Shown: positions 1-49,181 of the stretch, one piece after another
How the letters are laid out: each line of letters starts with the position of its first letter
Numbering within the stretch: the first letter of the stretch is position 1
Program-made: the position numbers and the translations under genes
The notes under the pieces: generated by a model
What the model was told of the DNA's origin: nothing
Database searches by the model: none
What the model saw: only the letters and a program-made list of their open reading frames with translations
Virus record (IMG/VR): IMGVR_UViG_3300025122_000014
Location: 1-60,945 of that record
DNA: 60,945 bases
Source: a virus
Strand: one strand, 5' to 3'

Positions 1-1008
1 AATGAAGATACATATATGTTATCACAAAGTGGGTGGAATTATGGAGCATGTTCTACAGCTCAATATCCAAACGCTTCAGGATGGGGTATATTTAGAACTA
101 GAGGAACAGATGCAGCAAACACTGATTACTACGCTTATTTAGATGCGATTAATACATTCCAAAACCCTGAAGCTGTTAATATAAATGTATTCGCTACACC
201 AGGTATAGACTATATAAATCATAGTAATCTAGTTGAAGAGAGTATAGAAATGATAGAAGCTGATAGAGCAGATTCACTATATGTTACTACTACACCAGAT
301 TATAGTATGAACGCTTCAACATTTAACGCTACTAATATAATACAACCACAAGAAGCGGTAGATAATCTAGACGCTACAGGAATAGACTCTAACTATACAG
401 CAACTTATTATCCATGGGTACAACTTAGAGATAACGATAATAATGTTCAGCTATACCTACCACCAACATACGATGTAATGAGAAATATAGCATTAACTGA
501 TAATATCGCCTTCCCATGGTTCGCATCGGCAGGTTATACAAGAGGTATAGTAAACGCGGTTAAAGCTAGAAAGAAATTAACTTTAGACGATAGAGATATA
601 TTATATAAAGGTAGAATAAATCCAATCGCAACTTATTCTGATGTTGGTACTATAATTTGGGGTAACAAAACTTTACAAGTTAGAGAGTCAGCTTTAGATA
701 GAATTAATGTGAGAAGATTGTTACTACAGGCTAGAAAATTAATATCGGCAGTAGCTGTTAGATTACTATTCGAACAAAATGATGAACAAGTAAGAAATGA
801 ATTCTTAGATTTAGTTAACCCAATTTTAGATTCTATAAGAAGAGAAAGAGGATTAACTGACTTTAGAGTTGTACTTTCAGATGACCCAGCATTGATAGAC
901 CAAAATACCTTACAAGGTAAGATATACATCAAACCAACTAGGTCATTAGAATTTATAGACATAGAATTCTTAATCACACCAACAGGTGCTAACTTTGAAG
1001 ATATATAA
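1..1008 (+). CDS. Tail sheath protein, C-terminal part (5' truncated by window edge)
   Basis: This is the contractile tail sheath subunit, the protein that polymerises around the tail tube and contracts to drive it through the cell envelope. The frame is open from base 1, so the ATG at 16 is internal and the N-terminus lies outside the window. The last ~100 residues have the typical sheath C-terminal fold: a stretch reading INVRRLLLQARKLI, then a helix ending near LVNPILDSIRRERGL, then strands with 'FRVVLSDDP' and 'GKIYIKPTRSLEFIDIEF'. This matches the T4 gp18 / phage sheath C-terminal domain. The gp19-like tube gene lies 3.5 kb downstream, separated by inserted genes. The family call is confident. 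Confidence 0.93.
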   Translation, partial: NEDTYMLSQSGWNYGACSTAQYPNASGWGIFRTRGTDAANTDYYAYLDAINTFQNPEAVNINVFATPGIDYINHSNLVEESIEMIEADRADSLYVTTTPDYSMNASTFNATNIIQPQEAVDNLDATGIDSNYTATYYPWVQLRDNDNNVQLYLPPTYDVMRNIALTDNIAFPWFASAGYTRGIVNAVKARKKLTLDDRDILYKGRINPIATYSDVGTIIWGNKTLQVRESALDRINVRRLLLQARKLISAVAVRLLFEQNDEQVRNEFLDLVNPILDSIRRERGLTDFRVVLSDDPALIDQNTLQGKIYIKPTRSLEFIDIEFLITPTGANFEDI

Positions 1009-1074: not shown

Positions 1075-2268
1075 ATGAAAGATTTTAAGTACTCAAAAGA
1101 GGAAATTGTAGAAAAAACTATTGGAAAATTACAAGAAGGTGAAAAGACCTTCTCTGACCTACCACAAAATATTGTTGTAACAGAATCACAATTCGAAAGA
1201 TTAATGGAACAATGTTTAGGTGGTTCACCTGCAGGATTCGCTAATTTAGAAGGTATAGGAATACAACCTGAAGAAGGTGGAGAAGGTGAAGAAGTAGTTG
1301 ATGACACAATTATTTTAAATCTTGAAGAAGAAGACGAGTTAGAAGAAATAGTAAATGAAGCTTATAGTTTAATTAATGAAGCTATAAAAACTGAAAGAAT
1401 TACACTTTTAGAACAGGGTATGTACAATAGAAATCCTGGTGTTGCAGCTGGAGAAGGGATAGAAAATATAATTAATCATGTTAAAAAAGCATGGAATTAT
1501 ATAAAAGACCCGACTACTAGACAAAAATTAGAAAATAGTATAGTAAAATTATCTAATTTTATGACAAAGACGGCTGAACTTATGGCCGCAGGAAGAGACC
1601 AAAGAGCTCCTCGAGCAGATTCAGCAATTTTAAAAGACATGCCTTATCCTGAACATGAAGAAGGTTATGAATTTACAAGTGAAGATGACTTTACAGATGA
1701 AGAAGAAATTACAGAAACTATGATAGACGATGATTCTGATGAAGAAATGGAAGAAGGTTATGAAAATATTGACCATTCTGATAGAAGTGATGACAGTGAA
1801 GTTGTTGGGGTATACTCTGACATAGATGACCAAAGGATGGATGAATCAGTACAAAAAGAACTTAAATTAATGACTGAAACATGGCAAACAGTAGTTGGAA
1901 ACACATTGGGAACCGCACTTGGTACGGCATTAGCAAGTAAAGCAAGTGAGAAAGTAGGATTAGGTGAAGATGATGAAGGTGAAATGGATGATGAGTCTAT
2001 GGTACCTGGTGAATTTGATGTTACTGAACGAGTTTTAGGAACTGGTATTTCAGATGATGAAGGTGAAGGTATGATGTCAGGGTCTCCAGAAGATGAAGCT
2101 GGCTTAAAAGATGCAGATGATAGCGGAGAATTTTATGAAACAGAATTAGATGCCGAAATTATAGAAGCAGAATTAGAAGATGAAGAAACTGAAGAAGAAG
2201 GAGTAGAAGGAGATGATGATTCAGGAGGAGACGACGGAGCAACAGATAATTCAGGACAAAGAACATAA
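1075..2268 (+). CDS. Highly acidic protein of unknown function between sheath and tube
   Basis: I do not recognise this 397-aa protein. It begins with a lysine/glutamate-rich region (MKDFKYSKEEIVEKTIGKLQ), has a basic-to-neutral middle (roughly residues 95-190), and its second half is dominated by Asp/Glu runs with Gly and Ser, giving a very low predicted pI. No membrane segment or catalytic motif is visible. Its place after the sheath gene, with its own TATTTAT box and a strong terminator behind it, suggests a late gene. Acidic low-complexity phage proteins are often scaffold or core proteins or assembly chaperones, but that role is inference. It resembles the acidic protein at 20312 in composition. 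The ATG follows an A-rich leader without Shine-Dalgarno. Confidence 0.8.
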   Translation: MKDFKYSKEEIVEKTIGKLQEGEKTFSDLPQNIVVTESQFERLMEQCLGGSPAGFANLEGIGIQPEEGGEGEEVVDDTIILNLEEEDELEEIVNEAYSLINEAIKTERITLLEQGMYNRNPGVAAGEGIENIINHVKKAWNYIKDPTTRQKLENSIVKLSNFMTKTAELMAAGRDQRAPRADSAILKDMPYPEHEEGYEFTSEDDFTDEEEITETMIDDDSDEEMEEGYENIDHSDRSDDSEVVGVYSDIDDQRMDESVQKELKLMTETWQTVVGNTLGTALGTALASKASEKVGLGEDDEGEMDDESMVPGEFDVTERVLGTGISDDEGEGMMSGSPEDEAGLKDADDSGEFYETELDAEIIEAELEDEETEEEGVEGDDDSGGDDGATDNSGQRT

Positions 2269-2298: not shown

Positions 2299-2327
2299 AA
2301 AAAAGACCCTTATGGGTCTTTTTTTTT
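2299..2327. terminator. Bidirectional intrinsic terminator between convergent genes
   Basis: The arms 2299-2309 and 2314-2324 form an 11-bp stem with GACCC/GGGTC at its head and a 4-nt loop. It is followed by a T-run on the + strand and preceded by an A-run that gives a T-run on the - strand. It sits between the acidic + strand gene ending at 2268 and the - strand gene ending at 2326, so it can stop transcription from both sides. Confidence 0.85.
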
Positions 2328-2616
2328 AGAGAAGCTTTCCGCCGTTATATAGAAACAGGATAAAAATCATTGGAGCTAAGAAGGGAGCTTTTATGAAATG
2401 GATGATTACGTACATATTAAAACCAGATTCGACCTCTCTACACATTCTTTCGTATTTAGAGTTGGTTAAGTTTCCATTCTCTACCTGTTCTAATAATCTA
2501 TTATTATATCTTGTGTTTATATCACACATATCTTGATATAGTTCGCTTTTATTCATTTCAATAAAAACAACCATTAGAATGATTGAGACGATTATGTATC
2601 CTATTAAGTATTCCAT
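2326..2616 (-). CDS. Small two-span membrane protein
   Basis: This is a 96-residue protein with a hydrophobic helix at about residues 3-21 (YLIGYIIVSIILMVVF), a charged linker of about 45 residues (NKSELYQDMCDIN onward), and a second hydrophobic helix at about 68-90 (HFIKAPFLAPMIFILFL). No family is recognised. It lies 60 nt downstream of the reverse-strand secreted-protein gene with no obvious promoter of its own, so the two are probably co-transcribed, ending at the shared bidirectional terminator. Small two-span phage membrane proteins include holins, antiholins and superinfection-immunity proteins such as T4 Imm. Which applies here, if any, cannot be read from sequence. Confidence 0.7.
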   Translation of the reverse strand: MEYLIGYIIVSIILMVVFIEMNKSELYQDMCDINTRYNNRLLEQVENGNLTNSKYERMCREVESGFNMYVIIHFIKAPFLAPMIFILFLYNGGKLL

Positions 2617-2676: not shown

Positions 2677-3678
2677 TTACATTTTGTAAATCTTCCAAAC
2701 TTTTTCATTTCTTTTTATTATGTACATTCCTTTAGGAAGGTCAAAATAAGAACAGTCATATCTTCTACCTAATAAGTCATGAATAGTTTCCCCTTTAAAA
2801 TAAGTATTTGGGTCATAGGCAGTAGACTTTTCAGATGTTTCTTCTGTTATGTTTGTAATTCCACCGATACCAACAGTAAGACAAAAAGTATCTCTTGTTA
2901 TATATAAGGGAGGAGTAATCATTACTCCATTAGAATCATATATACATGTCCAATCTACATAATTCCCACATGTAATTAGACACACCTCGAAGTAAAGTCC
3001 AGTTGTAGGCCATGTATAGATGTAGGCACCACAACCAACTAAAGGACAACTATCAACTAAAGTACCGTTAATAGGGTCTTTAAAAATCCATATTGGGTCA
3101 CAAGTAGTGTTCATATCCCATTCAGGATTAAGTGTATTAGTTTGATAGGAATCAAATAGAAGGGTATTAGGGGGATAAATACCAGAAGTATCTACCCACC
3201 AATCATAATAAGATTGATATGGTGGTGGAGGACCAGTAGTCATATTATTATATAAAGCAAAATCATATATATCAAAATAAACTGTGTCATTATCAGATAC
3301 AAATAACCCAGGCCAATAGTTGTCATGTGTTATTATTCTGTAATGGGTTAGTCCACTTGTATCTCCACCTAAGTTTGTGAAAACAATAGTATCGTATGTA
3401 AAATTCATCGTGATAGTACCATTAGGGTTTAAAGTACCTAAAGGGCATTCCCCCCAACTAATCCAATTGGAGGAAGAAGGTATCCATTTTTCTAATGTGT
3501 AATGGTATCCCCCACCTCCACCATAAATCGAATAAACGGTAGCTTTACCGTCCATTAAACCAACACATGTAATATTATTTACTAATACTGTGGTTGAAAC
3601 CGGGTCAGGAAAAATTTGTGACTTAACTAAAGTATTAAAGGACAGGATAAAGATAAGTAGGGAGAGTAGTTTTTTCAT
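2677..3678 (-). CDS. Secreted protein with SprB-like N-terminal repeat and putative T9SS C-terminal sorting signal
   Basis: This 333-aa protein starts with a clear Sec signal peptide (MKKLLSLLIFILSFNTLVKS, cleavage probably near QIFPDP). Residues ~30-75 read NNITCVGLMDGKATV... followed by a Gly-rich segment and a YHY strand, resembling SprB-type repeats of Bacteroidota surface proteins. The middle is rich in Cys, Trp, Tyr and Pro (cysteines near TTCDP, SCPLVGCG, CLITCGNYVDWTC), suggesting an extracellular disulphide-bonded domain. The last ~35 residues (HDLLGRRYDCSYFDLPKGMY, then basic KRNEKVWKIYKM) match the pattern of type A T9SS sorting domains (LLGR ... LPKGIYII ... K). It is therefore likely exported by the host type IX secretion system and displayed or released. 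It is encoded opposite to the tail genes with its own promoter, as expected of a moron. Confidence 0.82.
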   Translation of the reverse strand: MKKLLSLLIFILSFNTLVKSQIFPDPVSTTVLVNNITCVGLMDGKATVYSIYGGGGGYHYTLEKWIPSSSNWISWGECPLGTLNPNGTITMNFTYDTIVFTNLGGDTSGLTHYRIITHDNYWPGLFVSDNDTVYFDIYDFALYNNMTTGPPPPYQSYYDWWVDTSGIYPPNTLLFDSYQTNTLNPEWDMNTTCDPIWIFKDPINGTLVDSCPLVGCGAYIYTWPTTGLYFEVCLITCGNYVDWTCIYDSNGVMITPPLYITRDTFCLTVGIGGITNITEETSEKSTAYDPNTYFKGETIHDLLGRRYDCSYFDLPKGMYIIKRNEKVWKIYKM

Positions 3679-3777: not shown

Positions 3778-4473
3778 ATGAGAAATATAATAATTAATAA
3801 TAAACAATTATTATTTTTAGTAGAAAATATTAAAAATAAAAGAAATTTAAGTGAAATAGCTTCACTTAATAGACTAATACTATTAGATGTAGACGATACT
3901 TTATTATCCCCACAAGACATTTATATATACAGACAATTACCTACTGATGATGAAGAAATTACTTTAACTCCTCATGAATACTCTAAAGAAAATGTTACAC
4001 CAGAAACTAGACAGTATTATGATTATAGAGATTTTGAAGATACAGACACCATAAAGAACTCAATAATCACAGGAAAACCTATAGTAGCTAATTTAGAAAT
4101 TATGGATGACTTATTGACTAGGGGGTATAAACTAGGGATTTTAACTGCCAGAGGAATGGAAGATACGGTATTTGAGGGGTTAAAGGATTTTTTAATGTAT
4201 AAAAATAAAGCTGGTGATTTAATAAAGATTGGAGACAGACTGTCCAGAGATTTGGTATTTGCTATAAATGATATTGATAGAGTTAAAAATTTAGCTGGAA
4301 CTACTGATTTTGAGAAAAAAGCAGAAGTAATTAAAACACTTTTAGATACATTTGACCAAATAATATTTATAGATGACGACATAAAGAATATAAAAGCGAT
4401 AAAGGAAATGAAGAGACATTTACCTGATGAAGAAAAAAATAAGCTTTATGTTATGTCTGCTAAGGAGAATTAG
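3778..4473 (+). CDS. HAD-superfamily phosphatase-like protein
   Basis: This 231-aa protein carries the four HAD motifs. Motif I is LILLDVDDTLL with the two catalytic aspartates at about 37 and 39. Motif II is the Thr of LTARG near 122-126. Motif III is a lysine in the FEKKAEVIK helix. Motif IV is IFIDDD near 196-201. HAD enzymes hydrolyse phosphomonoesters through an aspartyl-phosphate. Phage members include polynucleotide kinase 3'-phosphatase domains and nucleotidases, but no kinase P-loop is present here. The 30 residues before motif I are hydrophobic and basic. It lies between sheath and tube genes and is not an obvious virion component. The substrate is unknown. Confidence 0.82.
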   Translation: MRNIIINNKQLLFLVENIKNKRNLSEIASLNRLILLDVDDTLLSPQDIYIYRQLPTDDEEITLTPHEYSKENVTPETRQYYDYRDFEDTDTIKNSIITGKPIVANLEIMDDLLTRGYKLGILTARGMEDTVFEGLKDFLMYKNKAGDLIKIGDRLSRDLVFAINDIDRVKNLAGTTDFEKKAEVIKTLLDTFDQIIFIDDDIKNIKAIKEMKRHLPDEEKNKLYVMSAKEN

Positions 4474-4532: not shown

Positions 4533-5021
4533 ATGGCCGATTTATTGATGAAAATGCCTATTCCTTACGAACCAAAAAAGAAGAATAGGTTTATAATGAG
4601 ATTCCCATCATCACTTGGTATTAACGAGTGGTACGTTTCTACGACTACTAGACCACAAGTTACTGTTAACGCAGTGGAGATACCTTTCCTTAATACTTCT
4701 ACGTATGTAGGTGGTAGATTCCTCTGGAACACTATAAACGTTACCTTTAGAGACCCAATCGGACCTTCCGCTGCACAAGCTTTAATGGAATGGGTAAGAT
4801 TACACGCTGAATCAGTAACCGGTAGAATGGGTTACGCGGCTGGGTACAAAAAAGATTGTGACTTAGAAATGTTAGACCCGACTGGGGTTGTGGTAGAAAA
4901 ATGGATACTACAAGGAACATTCTTAACTGATGTTAACTTTAACGATTTAGATTATAGTAATGATGGTATTGCTGATATTACAGCAACGTTAAGACCAGAT
5001 AGATGTATATTAGTTTACTAA
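4533..5021 (+). CDS. Tail tube protein (T4 gp19-like)
   Basis: This is the major tail tube subunit, which stacks as hexameric rings to form the channel through which DNA is ejected. At 162 aa it is almost the same length as T4 gp19 (163 aa). It shows the family pattern: an N-terminal arm with FIMRFPSSLG, a central TINVTFRDP strand followed by the helix SAAQALMEWVRLH, then DLEMLDPTG and a C-terminal GTFLTDVNF...ITATLRPD strand pair. The ATG follows a long A-rich leader. It is the first gene of the tube, chaperone, tape-measure series. Confidence 0.93.
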   Translation: MADLLMKMPIPYEPKKKNRFIMRFPSSLGINEWYVSTTTRPQVTVNAVEIPFLNTSTYVGGRFLWNTINVTFRDPIGPSAAQALMEWVRLHAESVTGRMGYAAGYKKDCDLEMLDPTGVVVEKWILQGTFLTDVNFNDLDYSNDGIADITATLRPDRCILVY

Positions 5022-5076: not shown

Positions 5077-5832
5077 ATGGATAGCACAATGCCAACATAC
5101 GAACCACAAGTCCCTTATGATGTTGTAGAACTTCCGTCAAGGGGACTTTTCTATGCGAATAATAAAAGTAGCGTTAAGGTTACTTATTTAACCGCATCAG
5201 ATGAAAATATATTAACAAGTCCTAATATTATTAATTCTGGGAGATTAATAGACACCCTAATAAGAAATAAGATAGTTGAAAGAGATATAAACATTGATGA
5301 ATTATTAGAATGTGATAAGGAGGCTATTTTAGTGTTTTTAAGAAATACAGCTTATGGCCCAGAATATGATATTAATTTAATAGACCCACAAACAAAGAAA
5401 GAATTCCCAGCCATAGTAGACTTATCTGCTTTAGACTTTAAAAAGATAGAAGTAAAACCTGATGAAAATGGCGAATTTTCCTTTAGTTTACCAGTTTCTA
5501 ATAAAAATGTAAAATTTAAACTCTTAACTGGTAAAGAAGTAGCAGAACTTGCAGACTTAGAATCGGCATATAAAGGATTAGAATTCGCTCCAGTAAAAAC
5601 TAAATTCTTAGAGCTATCAATTATGGAGATAGACGGTATGAGAGATAAGGAAAAAATATCTACTATAATCCCTTCTATGCCTATTAGAGATTCTCAAGAG
5701 TTAAGAAAATTTATAACAAAGACTGAACCAGGTTTAGATTTAGAAATCCCTGTAAAAACACCGTCCGGTAGTGTGGTAACAACCAAGCTACAGTTTGGTA
5801 CGGCCTTTTTTCGTCCTTTCTTCGGACTATAG
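5077..5832 (+). CDS. T4 gp26-like baseplate/tail assembly protein
   Basis: This 251-aa protein opens with VVELPSRGLFYANN followed by KVTYLTASDENILTSPN. That matches the T4_baseplate family (T4 gp26, baseplate hub assembly), whose members begin with a 'LPS+GlfY' motif. The rest is an alpha/beta protein with no catalytic motif. It lies between the tube and the tape measure, where many tailed phages encode tail assembly chaperones. The end of the gene overlaps a second ORF in the +1 frame. The last codons cross a run of six T followed by CGT, the only CGT arginine codon in a gene otherwise using AGA/AGG, so part of the product could be extended by frameshifting. The ATG at 5077 was chosen; the ATG at 5089 is also possible. 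Confidence 0.8.
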   Translation: MDSTMPTYEPQVPYDVVELPSRGLFYANNKSSVKVTYLTASDENILTSPNIINSGRLIDTLIRNKIVERDINIDELLECDKEAILVFLRNTAYGPEYDINLIDPQTKKEFPAIVDLSALDFKKIEVKPDENGEFSFSLPVSNKNVKFKLLTGKEVAELADLESAYKGLEFAPVKTKFLELSIMEIDGMRDKEKISTIIPSMPIRDSQELRKFITKTEPGLDLEIPVKTPSGSVVTTKLQFGTAFFRPFFGL

Positions 5833-6037: not shown

Positions 6038-8137
6038 ATGGCAGCCAATCCCAACCCATGGAGACTACAACGTGAAAACGAACCAGATAATGAGTATCTA
6101 ATATTTTTGGGTCAGGTAAAAGCGGCAAACTCGGGAATATATAATTCTACAGAGGTAGAAAATCTCGATAAGGCTATTACTAACCTAAATAATAAATTAG
6201 GGGTTACCCAGGAAAAACTAGCAAAAGCAAGTGAGGAACAAAGCAAATTATGGACATTCCTAGAGAGAAATTTCAAAAAAGGTACTGACGCTATAAAAAA
6301 CTACAGGGACGCAGCTCATAAGATGAGAAAAGACCCAGCAGGAGCTATGATGGCTTTAGCCCAAGAAGGTTTAGATTACTTACAAAGAGAAGCTGACGTT
6401 AGAGAACACATTATAGAAACCATTAATAGTACGGAGGTGGCTACAAAAATGATGACCCGTAACTTAATGGAAGCGGAGTTAGAAACCCTAAAATGGGGAG
6501 CTACATCTGAAGACCTAGCAAAAATAATGGGTGCACTCTCTCAAGATATGGGTAGAGCTTTTCAAATATCTCCTGAGGCTATTGTAGCTTTAGACGCGTT
6601 AAGAGTAGGTTTAGATTTATCTTCTTCCGACTTAAGTTCTTTAATCAAACAATTTGATATTATGGGTATCGGAGTTGAGGAGGCTACCGGTGAGATTGAA
6701 GAAATGTCTAAGGTTGCTAGAGGAATGGGCCTTAATGTAAGTAAATTTATGGGTAGTGTTGCTAGTAATCTAAAAATGGCAAACACATTTAAGTTTAGAG
6801 ATGGTGTACAAGGATTTACTAGAATGGCCGCTCAAGCACAAAGATTACATTTTGACATGTCCCAAATAAGTAAAATGGCTACAGATTTATTTGACCCTGA
6901 GGCAGCAATAGATATGGCTGCCAATTTCCAAATTATGGGTGGTGCTATGGGTGACTTAACTGACCCATTTAGATTAATGTACTTAGCCACAAATGATATA
7001 GGTGGGTTACAAGACGCAATAGTAGGTGCTGCAGAAGCTAGTGTGATGTTTAATGAAGAGACAGGTGAGTTCGACATCTCGTCAACCGAATTAAGAAGAA
7101 TGAAAGCAATGGCAGACCAATTAGGTATGAGTCTGGAAGATTTTGTTACAGCAGCGAAGAAATCTAAATCCCATACCATGGCTCTAAAACAAATGGGTGG
7201 CATGGAACTTATTGACCCAAAATCTGGTGAAGATTTAAAAGAGTTTGCTGCCAATATGGCACAAATGAAAGGTGGTAGATTCATGATTGACTTACCAGAA
7301 ATAGGGGAAGTAGCACTTGAAGACATAGATACAAAAACAGAATTAGAGGCTTTAAGGAAATTACAAACACAAGAAGGACTGTCTACAAGAAAAATATCTC
7401 TTAACCAGTTATCTGCACAAGAACGAATTGCGAATGCTACTGAAGCACTGGTAAAAGGTGTTACATTTGAAGCTATGGGTGATGAAAAGGCCCCAATTAG
7501 AAAATATACCGACCAATTCTTGAGTGCTATAGAAAGTACAATAGGAGGTCCAATAATGAAACAAGTAGCAACACAAATAGCAGAATTAGGTGGTGCTATT
7601 GCAGAAGCTGTAGTCACGGGGGAGGAAAAAAACTTAGAACGAATAATTAACAGAACAGCAACCAATTTGGAAAGGTTAGCAACAACTATGGATGAAACAC
7701 TCATGAAAGACTTACCTTTGTTAGGCACATTTTTTCAAGGTTTAATGCATGGAACCCCTGGGGAACAAGGAGAAATGAAAGATTTTATATCTAGACCAGG
7801 ACAGCGAATGGGTAAATTTTCAGGTAAAGACATAGTAGTTGGATTTAAAGAAGAGAATCTTCAAGCGATGCCCTCAATGACCGAAATGAACAGTGCTGTT
7901 AATACATTTAATACCCAAAATCAATACTCAACCACAAGGAGTGGTCCAATAGATATTAATTTGAATATGAATGGTAGAGCGGTATTGGATATGCAAGGAA
8001 TAACTACAGAGGTTACAGCACAGAAACTACAAGAAGTTATGGGTGAAAATCAATTCCAAATGTGGTTAATGTCACAAGTAGGGGAAAGAATAGCGCAAGG
8101 GGGTAATGCCTTCGCAAACTATGGTACCACAACATAA
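6038..8137 (+). CDS. Tape measure protein (putative)
   Basis: This 699-aa, largely helical protein is rich in Ala, Met, Gln and Glu. It begins with a coiled-coil-like region around residues 40-75 (LDKAITNLNNKLGVTQEKL...), followed by helices with repeated AMGDL/MGG patterns (for example AANFQIMGGAMGDL near 290-305) and LGMSLEDFVTAAKKS. These are typical of phage tape measure proteins, which fill the tube lumen, set tail length and help open the membrane during ejection. T4 gp29 is of comparable size (590 aa). The position after tube and gp26/chaperone-like genes strongly supports the call. There is no peptidase or lysozyme domain. The C-terminal ~60 residues are not coiled coil and may contact the hub. 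Confidence 0.8.
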   Translation: MAANPNPWRLQRENEPDNEYLIFLGQVKAANSGIYNSTEVENLDKAITNLNNKLGVTQEKLAKASEEQSKLWTFLERNFKKGTDAIKNYRDAAHKMRKDPAGAMMALAQEGLDYLQREADVREHIIETINSTEVATKMMTRNLMEAELETLKWGATSEDLAKIMGALSQDMGRAFQISPEAIVALDALRVGLDLSSSDLSSLIKQFDIMGIGVEEATGEIEEMSKVARGMGLNVSKFMGSVASNLKMANTFKFRDGVQGFTRMAAQAQRLHFDMSQISKMATDLFDPEAAIDMAANFQIMGGAMGDLTDPFRLMYLATNDIGGLQDAIVGAAEASVMFNEETGEFDISSTELRRMKAMADQLGMSLEDFVTAAKKSKSHTMALKQMGGMELIDPKSGEDLKEFAANMAQMKGGRFMIDLPEIGEVALEDIDTKTELEALRKLQTQEGLSTRKISLNQLSAQERIANATEALVKGVTFEAMGDEKAPIRKYTDQFLSAIESTIGGPIMKQVATQIAELGGAIAEAVVTGEEKNLERIINRTATNLERLATTMDETLMKDLPLLGTFFQGLMHGTPGEQGEMKDFISRPGQRMGKFSGKDIVVGFKEENLQAMPSMTEMNSAVNTFNTQNQYSTTRSGPIDINLNMNGRAVLDMQGITTEVTAQKLQEVMGENQFQMWLMSQVGERIAQGGNAFANYGTTT

Positions 8138-8149
8138 CCTTTATATGCT

Positions 8150-8171
8150 ATAGTTTTCTATACAAAACTAT
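8150..8171 (+). repeat. 8-bp inverted repeat before the 1655-aa gene
   Basis: ATAGTTTT at 8150-8157 and AAAACTAT at 8164-8171 are perfect inverted copies separated by 6 nt. The right arm runs into the TATTTAT box at 8169-8175. It could be a weak post-tape-measure hairpin or an operator-like site. Confidence 0.4.
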
Positions 8172-8175
8172 TTAT
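8169..8175 (+). promoter_or_regulatory. TATTTAT box, candidate phage promoter
   Basis: TATTTAT lies 16 nt before the ATG at 8192, overlapping the right arm of an inverted repeat. It is one of the ten recurring boxes. Confidence 0.45.
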
Positions 8176-8191
8176 GTAAAAAGAAAAAAAT

Positions 8192-11100
8192 ATGGCACCT
8201 GCACCAAAAGACGCTTCATCTTTATCGTTTATAGCAACCAATCAGTTAAGAGAAACACTTTTAACTAAAAACTTGCCTAGCCCATATGAAATTTCCGATA
8301 CCCTACCAGTACAATTTACTGATAATTCATACCGTTTAAGCAAACAAAATGAATATGAAGTAGTAAATCAGCTTTCCGCTGAAGAAATAGCGGAACCTTT
8401 TATAGAAAAAAGGTATTTGGATAACCGGTATGGTCCTCCAGGTGGCTATGATGATAGTATAGATATTAATGTTATTAGATTAGAGGTGGATAAAAGAATG
8501 GCTTATCCGTATTTCTCTGGTTTTTATTGTAATACTTACACTGTTATGGGCATCTTATTAGGTGTAAATTCAGAAGGACAACTAAACACTACTTTATTAC
8601 CTGGCATTGAAGATGATAGTCAATTAGCACAATTAGCAGCAGTTGAGTTAAAAAAAGCTTATAATGCAAGAGTAGCTCAAGAACTTTATGAAGAAACAGT
8701 TGGAAGACTTAATGTATTAGATGCTTTTCAAGACCCATTTGCAGCAGTTAACATATTATCAGGTAGAGAGAGTTTAATAGAGAAACAATGGAAATTAACA
8801 ATGCCAAGAACTTTAGTTGGAAAAGGGTTGGATTTTGTAGCTAGATTACAAGGACTCTATCTTCCAGTTTCAATCATACCAGGACAGTTTTTCGGACAAG
8901 AAGCAAACCCGCAACAAGGAAGAAATGTTAGACCAGAAGCCCAATCACTAATGGGTAAAATTTGGCAAGACGCTACAGCGTTAGTTGGTAATCTTGTAGG
9001 AGTTCAACGAAGACCAGTGGTACCTTTAACTATGAGTGATAGACTTATAGATTATACTGGAAGTGGACAAAAATCAGTTATGTTCCGTAATCTAACATAT
9101 AACAGATATAAACCTGAGTATAGGAAAGAGGCAACTATGGAAGCTTCTACAGCTATTGGTAGGTTAGTACAGGCAGGTGCTGGAGTAGTAAAGTCAGTTT
9201 TAGGAACCCAACCACCACAAGGACAATACTATGTTGGAACTAGAAAGAACGACCCAAAGAATATACCGAGTCCAAACGAGGCTTTACCACAAAATGAATT
9301 TGGGGAATTGGTTAATAGTCCGGTATACGGACCTGACGCGTTATCTAAAGAGTTTGAAAATTTTGATGGAAATGAGGCATGGAGAACCCATAATTTTGGT
9401 TTGGCTGGAAAAGCACTTGCAGATGGGGGAGGTGTAGCTGGAGGTTGGACATGGTATGGTAAAGATAAAAACCCACCACCTGGACAAACAGTAGGACCAA
9501 ATGGTGTAACCGCGGGAGAAGATGTTGATAATAATGTAGATTTTAGAAGTTATAAATTACCTGATGACCAGTACAATAGTTCTAGGTCTGGCACAGATAA
9601 GTTATTTAGACCAGGTACAGTACTAGATGTAGCACAAAGATTAGTAGAAGCTGTTCCGGAGGTGGGAGGAGCCCGCCTGGGACACGTAGGACACGCCATA
9701 GACCAAGTATCTAAAGTTTTTAATGATGGGTATAAGGAATTGACTAAAGGGTCTCAGGTGAGAAAATATGTGGATAGTAATGGGTCGTATAAAGGTGCGG
9801 AGTATTGTAGAATATTTACAAAAGATACACCATTTTATACTTACAATAGATTACAAAAGACACAACAAAATATTAGAAAAGAAAGTTATTCAGTTTTAGA
9901 TAGTCCATATAATTTAAATATTGCTCCTTACAGTGATGAAGACTCCACTAATATCATAAATAATCCACAAGATGGAGGTGTAGCACACGTAAAAAAATAT
10001 ATGTTTTCTTTAGAAAATTTAGCATGGAGAACATCTAATGACCCAGGTTTATCCTATACTGATTTAGCTGTATGTGAAAGAGGACCTAATGGTGGTAGAA
10101 TAATGTGGTTTCCACCTTATGATATTGCCATTGATGATAATAGCTCAATTAGTTGGTCATCTAATAACTTTTTAGGTAGACCAGAACCAATATATACCTA
10201 CAACTACACAGAAAGGATTGGGAATCTTAGGTTTAAGGTTGTTGTTGACCACCCAACGGTGCTGAATAGAATAGTAGATAAAGAATTAGGAGGATTAACA
10301 ACCGAACAAGAAAATGAAGTTCTTAATTCATTCTTTGCTGGGTGTTATGAGTATGATATTTTTGATTTATCTAGAACTTATCCAGATTTCGATAGAACAG
10401 AATTAGAGACCATATTAACAATAATAAACCAACAACCACCCATAAAAGAAGAAATGGAGTTTGTAGCCCTCCAAGAAGGGGAACCAGAAACTTTTATAGA
10501 GGATGGTGGAAGTTCTATACCTGATTTATCAGCTTATGATAATCTTAGTTTTTATTTTGAAAATGATTACCCAGACCCAAATACTCGTAGAACTACATCT
10601 ACAGTACCTTATACTACTTTAGCTGAAGGAGGAGGTTCTAAATGGGGTAACTATATTGGGGATGACCAAACAACAGGAACTCTTAAAGTATATTACCAAA
10701 AACAACCAGTTGTGGAAAAACAGAAAAAACTACAAACATTTTTTGAAGAAGCAACAGAAAATTATAATGTTAAATTTCCTGAGTTAATGGTTAAATTAGA
10801 AGAGATATTGTCTAGTGGTGAATTTACTATAGATATTTCTTTCATTGGAAGTGCTAGTTCACCAAACACTAAAGATTATAACGTAGACTTATCCAAAAGA
10901 AGAATAGATTCTGTTAAAAAGATGATTCTAGCCTATCAACTAGGTGGTAAGTTTCCATTCCAGAACTCCTATGATAAAGCAGATTTAAGATTTCCTGAAT
11001 CACAAGCTTCAGGAGAAGAGATTAATATAAATGGTATTAGTTGTACAGCAGATTTAGATACTCCAGATAACATATACTCTATTAATGCAGCTTATTGTAG

Positions 11101-41000: not shown

Positions 41001-44000
41001 ATGGCTAAGGGAGAGAACAATGAATTAAGGCCTGGAAATGGAGCAGGCACATTTAGTGATTATCTAGTAGGTAATCAATATGTGACAGGTACCCCACAAT
41101 TCACATTGGGGAATTTTTCTGTTACTGATTCTGTGCCCACCAAAGACGACCGAGACTTTAATTTAGGTAGTTTCTCCGAACCAATTACTTTAAGTACTCT
41201 TAATATAGAATCTGTAGAAGAATCATTAAAATTAGTTTCCAATAGATTAGAAGTATTTGTAAATTACGATAGGTCTAAAATTACTAATTTTACTCAATTT
41301 GGGTCTCTAAAAGAGAAATTTAGAGTTTCTGTTCTTACCATTCTAAGAAATTTTCCAGCTGTAATACATGTTAATAGAATTGGCCTTAACTTACTTAGTG
41401 GGAACACTAGTAGTGGTTATACTTATGACCCTAATGTTAATGAGGCTAGTTTCAGAGTAGGTTCCGCAAGATTAAATAATCCTTTTAATATAGAGTTTAC
41501 TACAAAAGGAAATTTACCCTCTAATGGTGATAATAGAATTAGTGAATATCGTAACTTAACAAAAAAATATACGGATTATGTTATTTCAGTACAAAGTAAT
41601 AATTACCCAATCCTATCATTTACACCACCAACAGCTTCTACTGACAGTAATTTAAGTTTTATAGTGAAAGGAAACCCATTCAGTGGGGCTAGTAGTGTTA
41701 CCGCTACTACTTTGATAGACTACCAAATAAAACTTTCTGAAACTAGAATAGAAGAAGTATTCAATTCATTGACGGAGGTAGAACAATATCTCTTAAGTAG
41801 AGACACAGTTCCAAAATACACATCAACCTTTCAGATAAAGAAAACTTCCGATGATGGGGACGTTATAGGAGCTACACAATTAGTAACTTGGCCAATGCAG
41901 GACGATTGGAATATTATGATATCCGGAGCTACTTTTGGGGCCTATTTAACTTCTTTATATGATATTGGGGACGCATTAGATAGAGAAAAAACTAATCTTA
42001 TTTCTAGATTTTTAACTACTGCGGCATTAAAGGAATTTGATACACCAGAACATAAAGTAGAAAAGGTATTACAACTTTATGGTAGAAGTTTTGATGAGGT
42101 TAAAAAATATATAGAAGGATTAGCTTACATGAATAATGTAAGTTATAGTAAACAAGATAATGTACCAGACGCTCTACTAAAGAATTTAGCTCAAGTTATT
42201 GGATGGAAAACACCATCCGCAATTAGTGAAGATAATTTCTTAGAATCTGTTTTTGGGTTAGAAGCTAAAAAAGAAGACCCATTATATGCTGGAGAGGTTA
42301 GTAACAAGACTCCAGCAGAGTTAGATATAGATTTATATAGAAGATTGATTTTAAATACCGCCTATCTATTTAAATCTAAAGGTACAAGAAAAGCTATAGA
42401 ATTTATGTTAAGATTTATTGGTGCTCCAGAAGCATTAATAGAATTTAACGAACATGTATATGTTGCAGGACAACGTATTAATATGAGTAACTTTAATACG
42501 ACCTGGGGTAAAATGTCAGGAGGAACATATGTTCAAGAGATACCGGTAAGGATAACAGGATTTACCGCTACACAACCAGGAACTGTAGCACCTTATATAC
42601 CTACAACTATAAGTGGTTATACATTTGGTACAAAATCATTAGTATCGGATATCCCTTATGGTAGAAAAGATTTTCCTGTTGACGACCAAGGATTCCCAAT
42701 TGTACCACAAGTAGGGACAGATAGTTGGTTCCAAGCTGGTGCAGGATGGTTTGAACAAACTTTAGAACATAGAGGGAGAAGAATAACAGATTTTACTAAG
42801 TCTGTATTTACAGGTAATACACCTACAGTTAAAACTAAATTAAATGCATTTACCTACGGTGAACCTTATTTAGAAAGATTTAGAAGATTTCCGTCTATGA
42901 TGGATGGATTTGATATAACTAGAACTGTAGATAATAAAAAATCTTGGGTGGAAGAAAAAGACACATTCCAAACCAGATACTATAGTTTACGTGATAGAGG
43001 AACAAAATATTTTACAGATGACGAGAGATTGGTCATGAATGTTAAGAATGTAGAATTATTCATGAATGTAGGTCAAGGGCTAGAATGGGATGTTTGGAAC
43101 TATTCAAGAAAATACGGTTGCCCATTTGGTCTTACCGCATTAATATCTCCACCATATCCAGGTTTAGGGGGTATAGATGATACGGAAGTTAAAATAAACG
43201 CTTCCACAATGAGTTTCTTTGAATTTGCATCACAATTCTATAAGATTTTAATAAATGTTAAAAATCGTTTAACTATAGATGATGCAAAAGGTGGAGGATA
43301 CCCTACTTTACAAAATGTTTATGATGATTATATAAACAATTATTTGGTGACATGTGGTGTAAAAAGCAGCCAATACACCTACCAAAAAATGATAAATTAT
43401 TGTGAAAAGATTGGTGATTATTGGGTAAGATTGATGGAACAATTTATACCAGCTACTACTATTTGGCAAGGTGGTGTAAGATTTGAAAATTCTATTTTTC
43501 ATAGATATAAATTCCCTTATAAACATGAACCTTTATGTGATGATATACCATGTCTAGGTTCTTGGGTAGAATGTGCAAGACCACCATTATACGATACATT
43601 AGCTAATCATTGTTATATTTGTGAAGATACATTATCAGCTAGTACAGGATACACAAACTGGACCGCTAATATACAAATAAACAATCAAAGTTATACTAGT
43701 GGAGTCTACTATACTAGTACTGGGTGCACAGACCCACCACAAACCAGTTATTGGTTTAGTGCTATGACAGGCATGCTACAAGGAATCCAAGGAAATACCG
43801 CAGACCCAAACTCAGGACTTACATATTATGTTATAGACACCACCACTGACAATACGATTGACCTTGATGGTGATGGCACACCTGACATTTATTTAAATAA
43901 CCCAGATTCTATTCTAATACAAGGTCCTTGTAGTGTGGCAGGGGAAGATTTATGGAATTTTAACAATGGTTCGGACCCTCACACTTATAATAGTTGGCAG

Positions 44001-47000
44001 AATCTTTTTGAAATAGATTGGAATACAACCGGTTCCACAACTGCATATACCGCTATATATAATTTTGCCTTAGATACTGGAAACACACCGACATATACCT
44101 TAGTAAGTGGTTGGGATTTAAGAGCACCAAACGCATCTACCACAAACGATACACCTTTATTCCCACCACCTTCAGTAATAGATGGAGGAGGAATCTCAAC
44201 TTGTTGGAATTGTCCGGGAACAGGAATGACAGAAGGTACCGTTCATTATTGTGTAGATTGGGGATTCACTGGTTGTACTGGTACTACTAGTGCTTATTCA
44301 GCGACTACTAGTTGGTCCGGAATTACCGGAAATACATTTATACAGAGTGCTACCACCTGGAATTGTGGTGAAGATAATAGACCAGATTTATTAGCCAACC
44401 AATACGGTAGTATGTGGGGTTATGACACCACTTTATTCGTTAGTGGCATTACCGTTTCATACAACCAAAACAATGTATCCTTTTCAGGAGCTATGACGGC
44501 AACCTCTATAGTTTATAGTGGTGTTTGTTGTGAGACTAATCATGCTGGTTGTGGTGGTTGGGAAGAAACACTTACAGGAAATACTGTATGTCCATGTAAT
44601 ACAGTCACTGGAACATATCCAGTACAATCTCCACCAGCAACAGCCCCAACAAGTATATCGTCAACTCCTACCCAAGGGGACTTTGTGGATTGGTGGCAGG
44701 AGGGGTATTGGAATAATATATACGACCAAGGATATAATGTATTAATTAATGTAGATTTTGGTAGTCCGGGTCCTATTCCTGGGTGCTACCAACTCACTAC
44801 AGGACTTGGAGCTTTAGGACTTTCAGATGCTCAAATGATATTAACTTATTATTGGAAACAAATACCATGTAGTGCTACGACAACAAATTATACAGTACCT
44901 TTTGACGGAGGTAATAATCTTTGGAAAGCTCAGGATTGTAAAGATACTACTACTATACCTGAAAACCCACCAGCGACTGGTACAACAACAGCAACAACAT
45001 ATCCAGAAATATTTAAGGATGGAATTTCTAATATAGGAGGACAAGCATGTTATCAGGTTTATTATCCTTGTCCTGAGTGGCAAGACCCTTGTGCATGTCC
45101 ACCAGCATCATTTTATTGGGATGATTCACTTCCTAATGGTTGGAACCCGAGGGTTATGGTACACAACCAAGTTATGCCTGGTGAATGTGTAAGTTGTTGG
45201 ACCGGGGACACTAGTATTTCTTTTATTAATACTTCAACTATATATCCATGGGTACTATGGGGGCAACAAACACCTTATTCACCAGGCGGGCCTTTTGGAG
45301 CTATATACACTCCTGGTAGTAATTGTCTCGCGGGTTGTTTTGGACAACATGTGATTCATGACCCAGTAGGAGGACTTGGATTTTGTGATAATGTGGCAGC
45401 AGCTCAAGCTATGACGAATTGTGTAAATAGTTGTTCTAAGTATAATTTGGAGGTATGTGACACACAAATTGCTAAAAATCTTAAGATGGGCCCTAACCAG
45501 GGGGTACCAGCTAAAATCACACAAACTAATCCAAGAGATTCATTCAATCCATGTGACCCTGTCGACCCACCAGGTGAGGAAAGGTGTATATGTGACCCGG
45601 CTACAGCTTTGGGAACTCTTGACCAGACAGCTGAATTAAGTATCAGTTTTAATAGGGTAAGCTCTGGTTTGGTACCAGCTGAAATTATGAATATGCCCGA
45701 TTATGGGCCTAACTCACAAACTATTGGTGGTTCTACCTCAAGGTCAGCTCCAACGTACAAGTATGTCCAAGGTGGGGTACATGACGCAGCTGTTGCAAAA
45801 ATTTCACTATGTTGTTTAGGTCAATATTTTGGATGGCAATCTAGTGCATATAACGCAAATGGTTCTTTTGGTGAAATAGCGACTATATCGGCTAGTTTAA
45901 AAATGGACGAACAGTCATTTGTAGAATTATGGTTAATAGGTGGAACTCAATCGAACATATTTAGTTTAGATTTTAATGATACCCATCCATCAAAGATGAG
46001 GAACCAACTATGGATGCTAGTACCAGATGGTACAATAGATACTATGCAAGTGATAGATTATAATTACTGGGTGCAATGGATGACACACTCTTCAGGGAGT
46101 GCTGGTAATGTAGTTTTAAATCAAAAAATACCTATCAGAATAGGTTCAGTAGACTCCTCATCGGACCTATACCAACTTGATAATAGTTATGAAGGGGTGT
46201 ATGGTATATTTGGAATGTCTAATCATATAGATGTCTTAAATGGTTCAGTGTTTGGTATGCCTACAAACGATATGAGTGAACCTTACTGGTATACCGGTTA
46301 TTATTCAAACGGTGGTTGCGGTGGTTGTGGTGGTTTTCCTGGTAGTTCGAACTATGAACTATTTCACTGTAATAGTGGGAATAATTCCAGTGCAGAAGGA
46401 GCTGCAATTGCACAAATGTATGCTGGTCTAAATGTGGGAGGACCCTATTCTACAGGTAGTGTTTTATGGGAAACCAATAGTGGGCCTGGTAGTGGTTTGG
46501 AACCACCAAATGAAAATTGGGGGAACCCAATGGGAGTAAATCATGGAGGGTATGGTTTAAGGCTATATCCTTGTTGGTATACACGATTTGAAGCTAGTTG
46601 TATTGCACAAGATGATTCATCCCAAGTTAATTTGGGTAATATATTATTTTATCCAATTGATGAAGGAACCCCAACACTTATGACTCAACCAGAAGTAGAT
46701 GCTATTATACCTCAAAGTCCATGTCCTGGTGGTGGAGTTAGTCAACAGATGGCTAGAACTTTACAATCGTATCTTCCACAGGTTTTTGAATCTGCAGAAC
46801 CTTTGGATATAGCTTTAAGTGAAGGTGGAACATTTGAATTTGATTATAAGGTGTTTTTAGAGGATAAAATGCCTTTATATCCTGAAGACGCTTTTGAGAT
46901 AATAAGTTCGGAACCATATATTGTAATGAACAGTAAAAATCTTAATACAGGGACAAAAGATTTAAAATATAATAATCCAGATATTAGAACCAGATTCGGC

Positions 47001-49181
47001 CCAGAAGAGTTCCAAACATTCACCAAAGACGGTAAAATAGAATACCAAGTTGGTTGGAGAAAAGAAATAGTTAACGAAAATAATGCTCAATTTATAAAGT
47101 TTGCAAGTATTAGTCAAAGAGATGATTTTGAAAAATCATTAAAAGAAAAACAAATAGCAGGAATAGAGGCATACACTTTATTCACACATCCAAACGAATA
47201 CCCTATTAAATGGGAATCAGCTTTACAATGGGCAGAAAGAAGTATAGGTAACCCATGGTTTAGTAATTGCACCATACATACCGCTCCTGATGGTAGTTTT
47301 AGTGGTATAACTATTAGACCAGATTCCTTCTATTCTTTGGAAGAAAAAGGTAATGCTTATTATGTACCTATTAATGACCCAGCAACTGAAATAGTCGGTA
47401 CTACTTGGTCGAGTTGGCCACAATTTATAGCGGATAAATCAGGATTTACTCACTCATATACTGGTTATACCGATTATACATTATCTGGTACTGAAACAAC
47501 TCAGATGTTTGATTTATACTTTAGCTATAGTGCATTTACTGGAAATACATTGGTACCTTTAAGTGATAAATCACCACTAGATGGCCAGTTAATGGGTATA
47601 GATGATATTAAAATTAGAGCCGCGATATTCCCAGAATCTCTAGGATGTAATGGTGGACCAACAGACATAAACACTACTGAAGGAGGTATTATATATGCAC
47701 CTACCAGAGACGGCAAGTATAGAATACAATTTAAAGCTGTATTAGATGTAAAATATGAGGATACTTCTTGGTGTGACTATGTTAATAGATTTTATAAAAA
47801 AGAAGGATTAGATTACTCGTACCCTTCAAACGATTATGAATATAAAGAATTAATAAATTCTGCCATAATTCTTAAAGGGGGTAGAGTTTTAAATCCGGTG
47901 ATTGACCCATCATATCCTAAACTCTTAGAAGGTAAAGTATCTGACAAATATACTAATACAAATCCTTATTGGCAAAGTAATCCAGCTTTTGGTTATAATA
48001 TTGGTGGTATTAACGATTTCTATTTTAGAATTTATCTAACAAATAATAGTGGACAATCAGAAACAGTATTAACTGAATATACTGTTACAACAAGTGAATT
48101 AGTTCGTTCTTGGGCAGACGATTTCTTAACTTATGATTTATTGGAGACAGATAAAAAGATTAACACTATGAGTTGTTCTGGTTCCACATCTCAAATACTC
48201 CATAAATCTTTTGACGTTAATTTAGATACTGGACCTATTTTGTTAAGTGGTGATACTGACGTAATAAGGTTAAAATATGAAGCGTACTGGTCTTCTAATA
48301 TAAAAGATACTGGGTCAACAAAAACATGTGCATTTAAAGTTAATTTAGGTAGAAAAGAACCTACAAATTCTGAAGATGCATCTTCTCCATGGATTAGAAT
48401 TACTAGACGACCTTATGATTTACCTATAATTGATAGAGAAATTATTTGGAAAAGAGACGCAAAAGGAAAAACTAATATTATAACTACTCCTAGTGGAGAA
48501 CAAAAAGATATATCGAGTACAGGACAACTTTATATAAATACAGATGAGAAATTACCGGCTTACTCTAACCCTAATGGGTTTATATCTATAACACCAAAAA
48601 ACTTTAATAATCAGACGTTCCTTGACATACCAAATAAGGGATATTCAGGACCTATGGTATTAGAAAAGAAACCAGGAAGAGCTACTAATTTATGGTCTTA
48701 TACTTTATCTAATGAGTATATAAAAAATACACCAAAAATAACTGACTATTATATAAACGCAGGAAAATCTATAGAGTGGAAAGATTTAAAAATAAGATGG
48801 AATTTACCATATCAAGACAAGTCTAAAACAACTGAGAGAAGTGTTTTCCCAAGCACGGATAACTCGTATGTTATAAAAACAACATTTAGGGGTAAATTAC
48901 AAAAAGGTTCTACATTTGACCATTTTATTGTTATGAATTCATCTGAAAATGATTTTACTGATAGAGATAATTTTACTGTGGATATACAACAAAGATTAAG
49001 AGGAAATTATAATAAAACAGTTACGATTGCACAACCTTCACAAGATTGTGATAAGAGGGTATACTTAAGTTCAGAACGCATTGTTATAGATGGTAAATTT
49101 GCTAATATTAGTACTACCGGATATAATTTAAATAAACCCAATAACACACCTATTATAGGTACTAGAAGAAAATTAAAATAG
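41001..49181 (+). CDS. Giant baseplate/tail protein with gpI-like N-terminal region
   Basis: At 2726 aa this is the largest protein in the window. Residues ~340-485 match the phage tail protein I (P2 gpI-like) pattern: VLQLYGRSFDEVKKYIEGL, then LLKNLAQVIGW, then the diagnostic YRRLILNTAYLFKSKGTRKA and IEFMLRFIGAPEALIEFNEH. gpI-type proteins join the wedge to the fibres. Downstream is a region with GYTFG and YGCPFGL segments, then a Cys/Thr/Gly/Trp-rich region (about 840-1560) with many short CxxC-like pairs, then beta-rich domains to the C-terminus with no recognised enzyme. The fusion makes this the likely scaffold on which the adhesins downstream assemble. Confidence 0.8.
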   Translation: MAKGENNELRPGNGAGTFSDYLVGNQYVTGTPQFTLGNFSVTDSVPTKDDRDFNLGSFSEPITLSTLNIESVEESLKLVSNRLEVFVNYDRSKITNFTQFGSLKEKFRVSVLTILRNFPAVIHVNRIGLNLLSGNTSSGYTYDPNVNEASFRVGSARLNNPFNIEFTTKGNLPSNGDNRISEYRNLTKKYTDYVISVQSNNYPILSFTPPTASTDSNLSFIVKGNPFSGASSVTATTLIDYQIKLSETRIEEVFNSLTEVEQYLLSRDTVPKYTSTFQIKKTSDDGDVIGATQLVTWPMQDDWNIMISGATFGAYLTSLYDIGDALDREKTNLISRFLTTAALKEFDTPEHKVEKVLQLYGRSFDEVKKYIEGLAYMNNVSYSKQDNVPDALLKNLAQVIGWKTPSAISEDNFLESVFGLEAKKEDPLYAGEVSNKTPAELDIDLYRRLILNTAYLFKSKGTRKAIEFMLRFIGAPEALIEFNEHVYVAGQRINMSNFNTTWGKMSGGTYVQEIPVRITGFTATQPGTVAPYIPTTISGYTFGTKSLVSDIPYGRKDFPVDDQGFPIVPQVGTDSWFQAGAGWFEQTLEHRGRRITDFTKSVFTGNTPTVKTKLNAFTYGEPYLERFRRFPSMMDGFDITRTVDNKKSWVEEKDTFQTRYYSLRDRGTKYFTDDERLVMNVKNVELFMNVGQGLEWDVWNYSRKYGCPFGLTALISPPYPGLGGIDDTEVKINASTMSFFEFASQFYKILINVKNRLTIDDAKGGGYPTLQNVYDDYINNYLVTCGVKSSQYTYQKMINYCEKIGDYWVRLMEQFIPATTIWQGGVRFENSIFHRYKFPYKHEPLCDDIPCLGSWVECARPPLYDTLANHCYICEDTLSASTGYTNWTANIQINNQSYTSGVYYTSTGCTDPPQTSYWFSAMTGMLQGIQGNTADPNSGLTYYVIDTTTDNTIDLDGDGTPDIYLNNPDSILIQGPCSVAGEDLWNFNNGSDPHTYNSWQNLFEIDWNTTGSTTAYTAIYNFALDTGNTPTYTLVSGWDLRAPNASTTNDTPLFPPPSVIDGGGISTCWNCPGTGMTEGTVHYCVDWGFTGCTGTTSAYSATTSWSGITGNTFIQSATTWNCGEDNRPDLLANQYGSMWGYDTTLFVSGITVSYNQNNVSFSGAMTATSIVYSGVCCETNHAGCGGWEETLTGNTVCPCNTVTGTYPVQSPPATAPTSISSTPTQGDFVDWWQEGYWNNIYDQGYNVLINVDFGSPGPIPGCYQLTTGLGALGLSDAQMILTYYWKQIPCSATTTNYTVPFDGGNNLWKAQDCKDTTTIPENPPATGTTTATTYPEIFKDGISNIGGQACYQVYYPCPEWQDPCACPPASFYWDDSLPNGWNPRVMVHNQVMPGECVSCWTGDTSISFINTSTIYPWVLWGQQTPYSPGGPFGAIYTPGSNCLAGCFGQHVIHDPVGGLGFCDNVAAAQAMTNCVNSCSKYNLEVCDTQIAKNLKMGPNQGVPAKITQTNPRDSFNPCDPVDPPGEERCICDPATALGTLDQTAELSISFNRVSSGLVPAEIMNMPDYGPNSQTIGGSTSRSAPTYKYVQGGVHDAAVAKISLCCLGQYFGWQSSAYNANGSFGEIATISASLKMDEQSFVELWLIGGTQSNIFSLDFNDTHPSKMRNQLWMLVPDGTIDTMQVIDYNYWVQWMTHSSGSAGNVVLNQKIPIRIGSVDSSSDLYQLDNSYEGVYGIFGMSNHIDVLNGSVFGMPTNDMSEPYWYTGYYSNGGCGGCGGFPGSSNYELFHCNSGNNSSAEGAAIAQMYAGLNVGGPYSTGSVLWETNSGPGSGLEPPNENWGNPMGVNHGGYGLRLYPCWYTRFEASCIAQDDSSQVNLGNILFYPIDEGTPTLMTQPEVDAIIPQSPCPGGGVSQQMARTLQSYLPQVFESAEPLDIALSEGGTFEFDYKVFLEDKMPLYPEDAFEIISSEPYIVMNSKNLNTGTKDLKYNNPDIRTRFGPEEFQTFTKDGKIEYQVGWRKEIVNENNAQFIKFASISQRDDFEKSLKEKQIAGIEAYTLFTHPNEYPIKWESALQWAERSIGNPWFSNCTIHTAPDGSFSGITIRPDSFYSLEEKGNAYYVPINDPATEIVGTTWSSWPQFIADKSGFTHSYTGYTDYTLSGTETTQMFDLYFSYSAFTGNTLVPLSDKSPLDGQLMGIDDIKIRAAIFPESLGCNGGPTDINTTEGGIIYAPTRDGKYRIQFKAVLDVKYEDTSWCDYVNRFYKKEGLDYSYPSNDYEYKELINSAIILKGGRVLNPVIDPSYPKLLEGKVSDKYTNTNPYWQSNPAFGYNIGGINDFYFRIYLTNNSGQSETVLTEYTVTTSELVRSWADDFLTYDLLETDKKINTMSCSGSTSQILHKSFDVNLDTGPILLSGDTDVIRLKYEAYWSSNIKDTGSTKTCAFKVNLGRKEPTNSEDASSPWIRITRRPYDLPIIDREIIWKRDAKGKTNIITTPSGEQKDISSTGQLYINTDEKLPAYSNPNGFISITPKNFNNQTFLDIPNKGYSGPMVLEKKPGRATNLWSYTLSNEYIKNTPKITDYYINAGKSIEWKDLKIRWNLPYQDKSKTTERSVFPSTDNSYVIKTTFRGKLQKGSTFDHFIVMNSSENDFTDRDNFTVDIQQRLRGNYNKTVTIAQPSQDCDKRVYLSSERIVIDGKFANISTTGYNLNKPNNTPIIGTRRKLK

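Follow-up and report, generated by a model that had tools for sequence, protein, structure and literature searches.

A phage gene placed between tail genes encodes a putative cargo of the host type IX secretion system with a minimal C-terminal sorting signal

A reverse-strand gene at positions 2677–3678 of a metagenomic virus record raises the question of whether a phage can address a protein of its own to the type IX secretion system (T9SS) of its host. The record is an IMG/VR entry of 60,945 bases, the whole of which is called the window here, and its source is a large T4-like phage, putatively of Bacteroidota. The initial annotation had proposed that the gene encodes a secreted protein with a type A T9SS sorting signal. 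The gene and its surroundings are as follows:

1–1008, forward strand: tail sheath gene, C-terminal part (PF04984, 33.1 bits)
2299–2324, reverse strand: intrinsic terminator with an 11-bp stem, closing a two-gene reverse-strand unit (from the sequence)
2326–2616, reverse strand: partner gene, for a 96-aa protein with two hydrophobic helices (family kept in relatives, in the same slot)
2677–3678, reverse strand: gene for the 333-aa exported protein, putative host-T9SS cargo (ORF, homologues, dN/dS about 0.19)
3778–4473, forward strand: HAD/polynucleotide-kinase-like gene, the divergent neighbour (phrog_415)
4533–5021, forward strand: tail tube gene, gp19-like (phrog_4542, E 5.6e-28)
5077–5832: T4-type baseplate protein gene (family match)

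The open reading frame runs from an ATG at 3678 to a stop at 2677. Full-length copies are present on four other viral contigs, with 96–97% identity in L001 and L002 and 74% in L005/L110 and L006/L111, and all of them occupy one identical genomic position; only two distinct lineages of the protein are known. Comparison of the window with L005 gives a dN of 0.16 and a dS of 0.84, a ratio of about 0.19. The intact frame, the conserved copies and this ratio indicate that the gene is real, as had been annotated, and under purifying selection. Its slowest-evolving parts are the signal peptide and the last 40 residues, dN in the latter being 0.08 compared with 0.17 for the rest of the protein (window against L005). 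The motif residues of the C-terminus are all retained in both lineages. Every phage record bearing the gene is metagenomic, and searches with the full protein gave nothing meaningful among the genomes of phage isolates. A search of plasmids found nothing.

The N-terminal part of the protein contains two recognizable features:

3619–3678, reverse strand: predicted Sec signal peptide, residues 1–20, with cleavage before Gln21 by the Q-rule (sequence; Gln21 invariant in homologues)
3493–3582, reverse strand: SprB-like Ig unit, residues 33–62 (PF13573, 17.8 bits, below the cut-off of 28)

The predicted signal peptide, MKKLLSLLIFILSFNTLVKS^Q, has a charged n-region, a hydrophobic core (mean 2.4) and Gln at +1, and its cleavage region reads KS^QIF. 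Signal peptides in Bacteroidetes follow a Q-rule, with Gln at the +1 position (PMC5837995), and the features seen here fit that rule, in agreement with the Sec signal peptide first proposed. The SprB-like repeat is present in all four members examined (4/4) and has the C-x-G-x2-D-G-x-A-x-V...GG...Y-x-Y pattern of the SprB repeat. However, it is a single partial copy under the PF13573 gathering cut-off (17.8 bits, E 0.0027, cut-off 28 bits), and we therefore call it SprB-like only. SprB itself has a type B CTD (C-terminal sorting domain), which the 333-aa protein, with its one sub-threshold unit, does not. The description of the ectodomain as Cys-rich needs similar qualification: there are 10 Cys, nine of them invariant, but in 333 residues the enrichment is modest. 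The remainder of the ectodomain is without a family match in Pfam, TIGR or PHROG-type models, and an AlphaFold2 (AF2) model of the whole protein had a pLDDT of 32 and was left aside.

The question of secretion thus turns on the C-terminus, where the following can be placed:

2680–2793, reverse strand: putative short T9SS sorting domain (CTD), residues about 296–333 (short-CTD profiles, 15.3–29.6 bits; blind genome search; AF2)
2761–2784, reverse strand: CTD motif B, IHDLLGRR, residues 299–306 (alignments; motif scheme of PMC11969387)
2716–2739, reverse strand: CTD motif D, LPKGMYII, residues 314–321 (alignments; Gly-Gly spacing of 13)
2683–2715, reverse strand: CTD motif E, terminal basic strand KRNEKVWKIYK, residues 322–332 (alignments)

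The pattern read there initially, IHDLLGRR-x7-LPKGMYII-x7-K, is present. A search pattern made from it post hoc matched none of 314 bacterial non-CTD ORFs, no other phage ORF, and six of 200,000 shuffles. The standard T9SS models gave no match to the 333-aa protein up to E 10 (TIGR04183 and PF18962, with curated cut-offs of 23 and 27 bits), our own long-CTD profile, built from 148 bacterial CTDs, gave 7.0 bits, which is no better than unrelated phage C-termini, and a PDB search with the C-terminus found nothing. The two standard models and our own profile are evidence against a long CTD. A negative TIGR04183 check had been set beforehand as refuting a type A sorting signal, and the check is negative; what is supported is a signal of the short kind. 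The short CTDs published for Prevotella intermedia (PMC11969387) provide this alternative reading, in which the standard models miss the C-terminus because short CTDs are outside the coverage of TIGR04183. One other TIGR04183 match in the window (52658–52831, 16.6 bits) was rejected as noise, being internal to a 502-aa protein and not terminal.

Short CTDs in P. intermedia are 43–55 aa long, with 1–6 aa instead of 10–17 between motifs B and D and three strands instead of seven; they are cleaved and glycosylated as the long ones are, and carry a cleavage-site motif PT/GI 6–11 aa before motif B (PMC11969387). P. intermedia is the only species stated there as reported to have both long and short CTDs. 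The phage C-terminus resembles them in its length of less than 60 aa, in the short spacers between its motifs B, D and E, in its three predicted strands, and in the basic residue after motif B and the basic C-terminus. It differs from them in being phage-encoded, in having His for Tyr in motif B, in its longer terminal hairpin, and in the lack of a clear Gly-Ile cleavage-site motif; no clear PT/GI precedes motif B, the candidates being GE at 296–297 or GIT at 273. With the TIGR04183 and PF18962 families it shares motif B, motif D (GxY) and the terminal basic residue, but it is without the YPNP start and has about half the strands. The distance from the Gly of motif B to the Gly of motif D is 13, which is the most frequent distance among 16 short CTDs of bacteria (range 9–19), whereas in 147 long CTDs it is 19–30, with a median of 26.

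The last 45 residues of the protein were used as a blind query against 395 Bacteroidia genomes, and the best 30 loci were taken. Seventeen of these lie in ORFs of at least 150 aa, of which 13 end in a CTD (more than 10 bits with an independently built type A long-CTD profile), with the match at the extreme C-terminus. The reversed query, used as a control on the same genomes, also gave 17 ORFs of at least 150 aa, none of them (0/17) matched at a CTD end. Two of the blind-query matches (L316 and L320) are short CTDs, and L320 used as query gave more in their two genomes. A held-out profile was then made from 14 bacterial sequences, without the two found directly by the 333-aa protein; the bacterial set comes from two genomes and descends from the query L320, which was itself found by the 333-aa protein and was excluded from the profile. 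The held-out profile gave 15.3 bits on the 333-aa protein, a score equalled by one in 100,000 shuffles, compared with 6.6 bits for the best unrelated phage ORF and 3.2 bits for the best bacterial non-CTD ORF. When two phage CTDs were added the score was 23.3 bits, equalled by none of 100,000 shuffles. The 74% homologue scored 8.7 bits with the held-out bacterial profile, below the window's protein. A profile of the short CTDs of other phages, with the 333-aa protein excluded, found just one place with E <1e-4 in the 395 Bacteroidia genomes, which is the C-terminal end of a bacterial protein of 1443 aa with a short CTD. AF2 modelling of the last 61 residues predicts three strands, at 298–300, 319–323 and 328–332, with pLDDT of 65–76 there, suggesting with moderate confidence a single three-stranded sheet of the short-CTD kind. 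Several independent lines of sequence evidence thus support the reading of the C-terminus as a T9SS sorting signal.

Comparable signals are found in related phages. The sister phage G001 (IMGVR_UViG_3300027771_001853; 297,623 bases) bears a 74% copy of the gene. At 30–50 kb (L338) it also encodes two exported proteins that end in short CTDs, a thioredoxin-like one of 432 aa and another of 172 aa, for which the held-out profile gives 20.4 and 24.6 bits. A lipoprotein and a 1321-aa protein with a complete TIGR04183 domain (40.3 bits) are encoded there as well. The same region contains an 801-aa TonB-dependent receptor with Plug and barrel (L338:2100-4505, reverse strand; phrog_5687), which is closest to heme/hemoglobin receptors (TIGR01785, 212 bits, under that subfamily's own cut-off). 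At 290 kb (L339) lies a gene for a type B protein of 176 aa, which exceeds the TIGR04131 cut-off with 40.3 bits. The genes around these cargo proteins are phage genes, including a tail fibre (phrog_9942), phrog_624, phrog_850 and a DNA ligase (phrog_114). Because G001 carries both TIGR04183 and TIGR04131 cargo over the cut-offs, a T9SS in its host is very likely. BLASTP of the 333-aa protein against the 432-aa protein of G001 gave a meaningful alignment of the C-termini only (17/34 identical, 50%, E 2e-6). As these proteins are otherwise unrelated, the alignment indicates that the terminal tag is movable, and common to two unrelated exported proteins of one kind of phage.

A 231-kb phage (G410, L344) encodes a 434-aa and a 263-aa short-CTD protein in tandem, together with a TIGR04183 protein (51.9 bits). 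The family of the 263-aa protein is found on 17 viral contigs including its own, some of them near-identical to each other. Each member starts with a signal peptide and terminates in a sequence of the kind KIYDLMGREL-x2-IPTGKMYIRNQKLYIK; scores are 11–20 bits with the held-out short-CTD profile and below 8 with the long-CTD one. In the wider group, G007 has type B cargo, and G011 has long type A cargo beside a 927-aa TonB-dependent receptor with Plug and barrel (L340:5803-8586, reverse strand). TonB-receptor matches in GenBank phage records were not used, being partial and in mostly unannotated faecal contigs that are possibly bacterial. Two further observations were made in L339 of G001. A complete phosphoenolpyruvate synthase (7141-9654, forward strand; 837 aa; TIGR01418, 1149 bits) sits between the gene for the phage DNA ligase and the cluster of type B T9SS cargo, and two adjoining genes (892-1491 and 1440-2006, forward strand) encode exported proteins, of which the first weakly matches a CAP domain (SCP-like).

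The initial annotation placed the gene inside a tail operon. It does lie in the tail block, but on the strand opposite to the forward tail genes, in a two-gene reverse-strand insert between them. The partner gene is downstream of it and encodes a protein with hydrophobic stretches near both ends. In relatives collected via the tail tube, the gap between sheath and tube often bears a reverse-strand gene for this same small membrane protein (alignment of 11 sequences), either alone or beside exported proteins of other kinds. These are lipoproteins of about 190 aa (L017, L018, L027, L033 and L034) and signal-peptide proteins of 139–155 aa (L018, L027, L028 and L034). Since relatives carry other exported proteins and lipoproteins there, this slot is a site of exchangeable exported proteins, of which the 333-aa gene is one. 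The two-helix membrane protein, of 78–96 aa (window 2326–2616, reverse strand), is the element of this cargo slot that stays constant among relatives. In another relative the gap before the tail tube holds a gene for a 541-aa protein (L012:993-2618, reverse strand), by its look an insert of the homing-endonuclease type.

The protein might also be explained in three other ways. It may be a Sec-exported periplasmic or outer-membrane protein with a CTD-like end inherited from a T9SS cargo and no longer working as a signal, as could be suggested by the same-slot proteins that have no CTD at all, by the divergence of the region before motif B, where the cleavage site would be, and by the failure of the standard models. 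We regard this as unlikely, because a dead tag should decay, whereas here the last 40 residues change more slowly than the rest and the motif residues are kept. It is very improbable that the protein is a virion component, such as a tail-associated adhesin using the SprB-like unit as an Ig-like tail module. The gene does sit among tail genes, and a 708-aa phage protein without a signal peptide (G009, L099:562-2688, reverse strand) appears to be built of SprB-like repeats and is possibly a tail fibre composed of a host-surface repeat. However, the 333-aa protein has a signal peptide and no tail family match. Its gene lies on the strand opposite to the tail genes, in a unit with a separate terminator, and most relatives lack it although their tail genes are otherwise the same. 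Least probable of all is a passenger gene from the host without function in infection: the 530-aa cargo of G011 is clearly host-derived (58–66% identity to Flavobacteriales proteins), but the 333-aa protein has no cellular relative in 84,980 species genomes, and its gene is under purifying selection between two phage lineages at a fixed position.

We therefore consider it probable that the 333-aa protein is phage-borne cargo for the host T9SS, carrying a minimal short type A-like CTD and made from its own reverse-strand unit. It would be transcribed from this unit jointly with the small two-helix inner-membrane protein, and carried over the inner membrane by Sec, with removal of the signal peptide before Gln21. 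The host T9SS would then take it through the outer membrane, recognising a CTD of about 38–45 residues, in which one strand and the motif B loop are followed by the motif D/E hairpin. Type A cargo use PorV (PMC12618676), and by analogy we infer that a PorV shuttle would bring the protein to the sortase, which would remove the CTD and leave the SprB-like, Cys-containing ectodomain anchored on the surface or released.

Exclusion of other phages, or some other change at the surface, is consistent with the membrane protein encoded alongside, with the exchange of exported neighbours in the slot and with a surface destination. The leading candidate for a role, which we put forward tentatively and as less than an even bet, is an altered surface of the infected cell, for example one at which the protein, together with the membrane protein, would keep further phages from adsorbing or entering. 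The SprB-like unit may alternatively serve in adhesion. The superinfection-exclusion pair of T4, Imm and Sp, consists of a small two-helix membrane protein beside an exported protein; the likeness to the 96-aa and 333-aa pair is in layout only. Given an exported protein with a short tag, and many such tags in related phages that standard searches miss, these phages probably redecorate the surface of infected cells.

The original claim of a novel route to cell remodelling goes too far for the category as a whole. Three Cryophage genes with T9SS type A domains were described in 2020, with superinfection exclusion suggested (PMC7468147), and T9SS domains adjoin crAss-BACON genes (PMC6949934). The Cryophage genes are similar in providing phage cargo for the host T9SS with a proposed surface change or phage exclusion, but their type A domains are on enzymes and a PA14 protein and were found by standard annotation, whereas the 333-aa protein has a minimal CTD, a different ectodomain and a T4-like tail-gene slot. 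The open-access journal papers searched contain no mention of phage-encoded short CTDs, which is not proof of priority. Since phage T9SS cargo has already been reported, it is the minimal-signal variant that appears to be new.

If the reading is correct, phages put their own proteins outside infected Bacteroidota cells via the host secretion machine, using signals short enough for annotation to overlook. At slightly less than even confidence, we suggest more broadly that large T4-like phages of Bacteroidota run a T9SS surface-remodelling programme. In this programme, a minimal virus-adapted signal of 30–45 aa missed by standard models would serve together with long signals of types A and B, with lipoproteins and with phage-encoded TonB-dependent receptors, and fixed cargo slots, of which the sheath–tube gap is an example, would be the sites of exchange. 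If the reading holds, the short-CTD profile provides a concrete search tool for many further phage genes of this kind, the signal itself is a small natural one from which the minimum requirement of the T9SS might be learned, and the proteins are candidates on which superinfection exclusion in Bacteroidota can be tested.

Two other features of these phages were observed. Many of their proteins have an amphipathic N-terminal stretch, for example K-L-T-E-x-E-L-V-x-L-I-E-K-V-x-K-E, which recalls the capsid-targeting propeptide of T4; examples are at window 3778–3850 (forward strand), L338:15229-15651, L339:397-810 and L341:14874-15698. Finally, the window contains a 2726-aa ORF (41001–49181, forward strand), which has a weak FG-GAP repeat as its sole family match and is probably a large tail or fibre protein.
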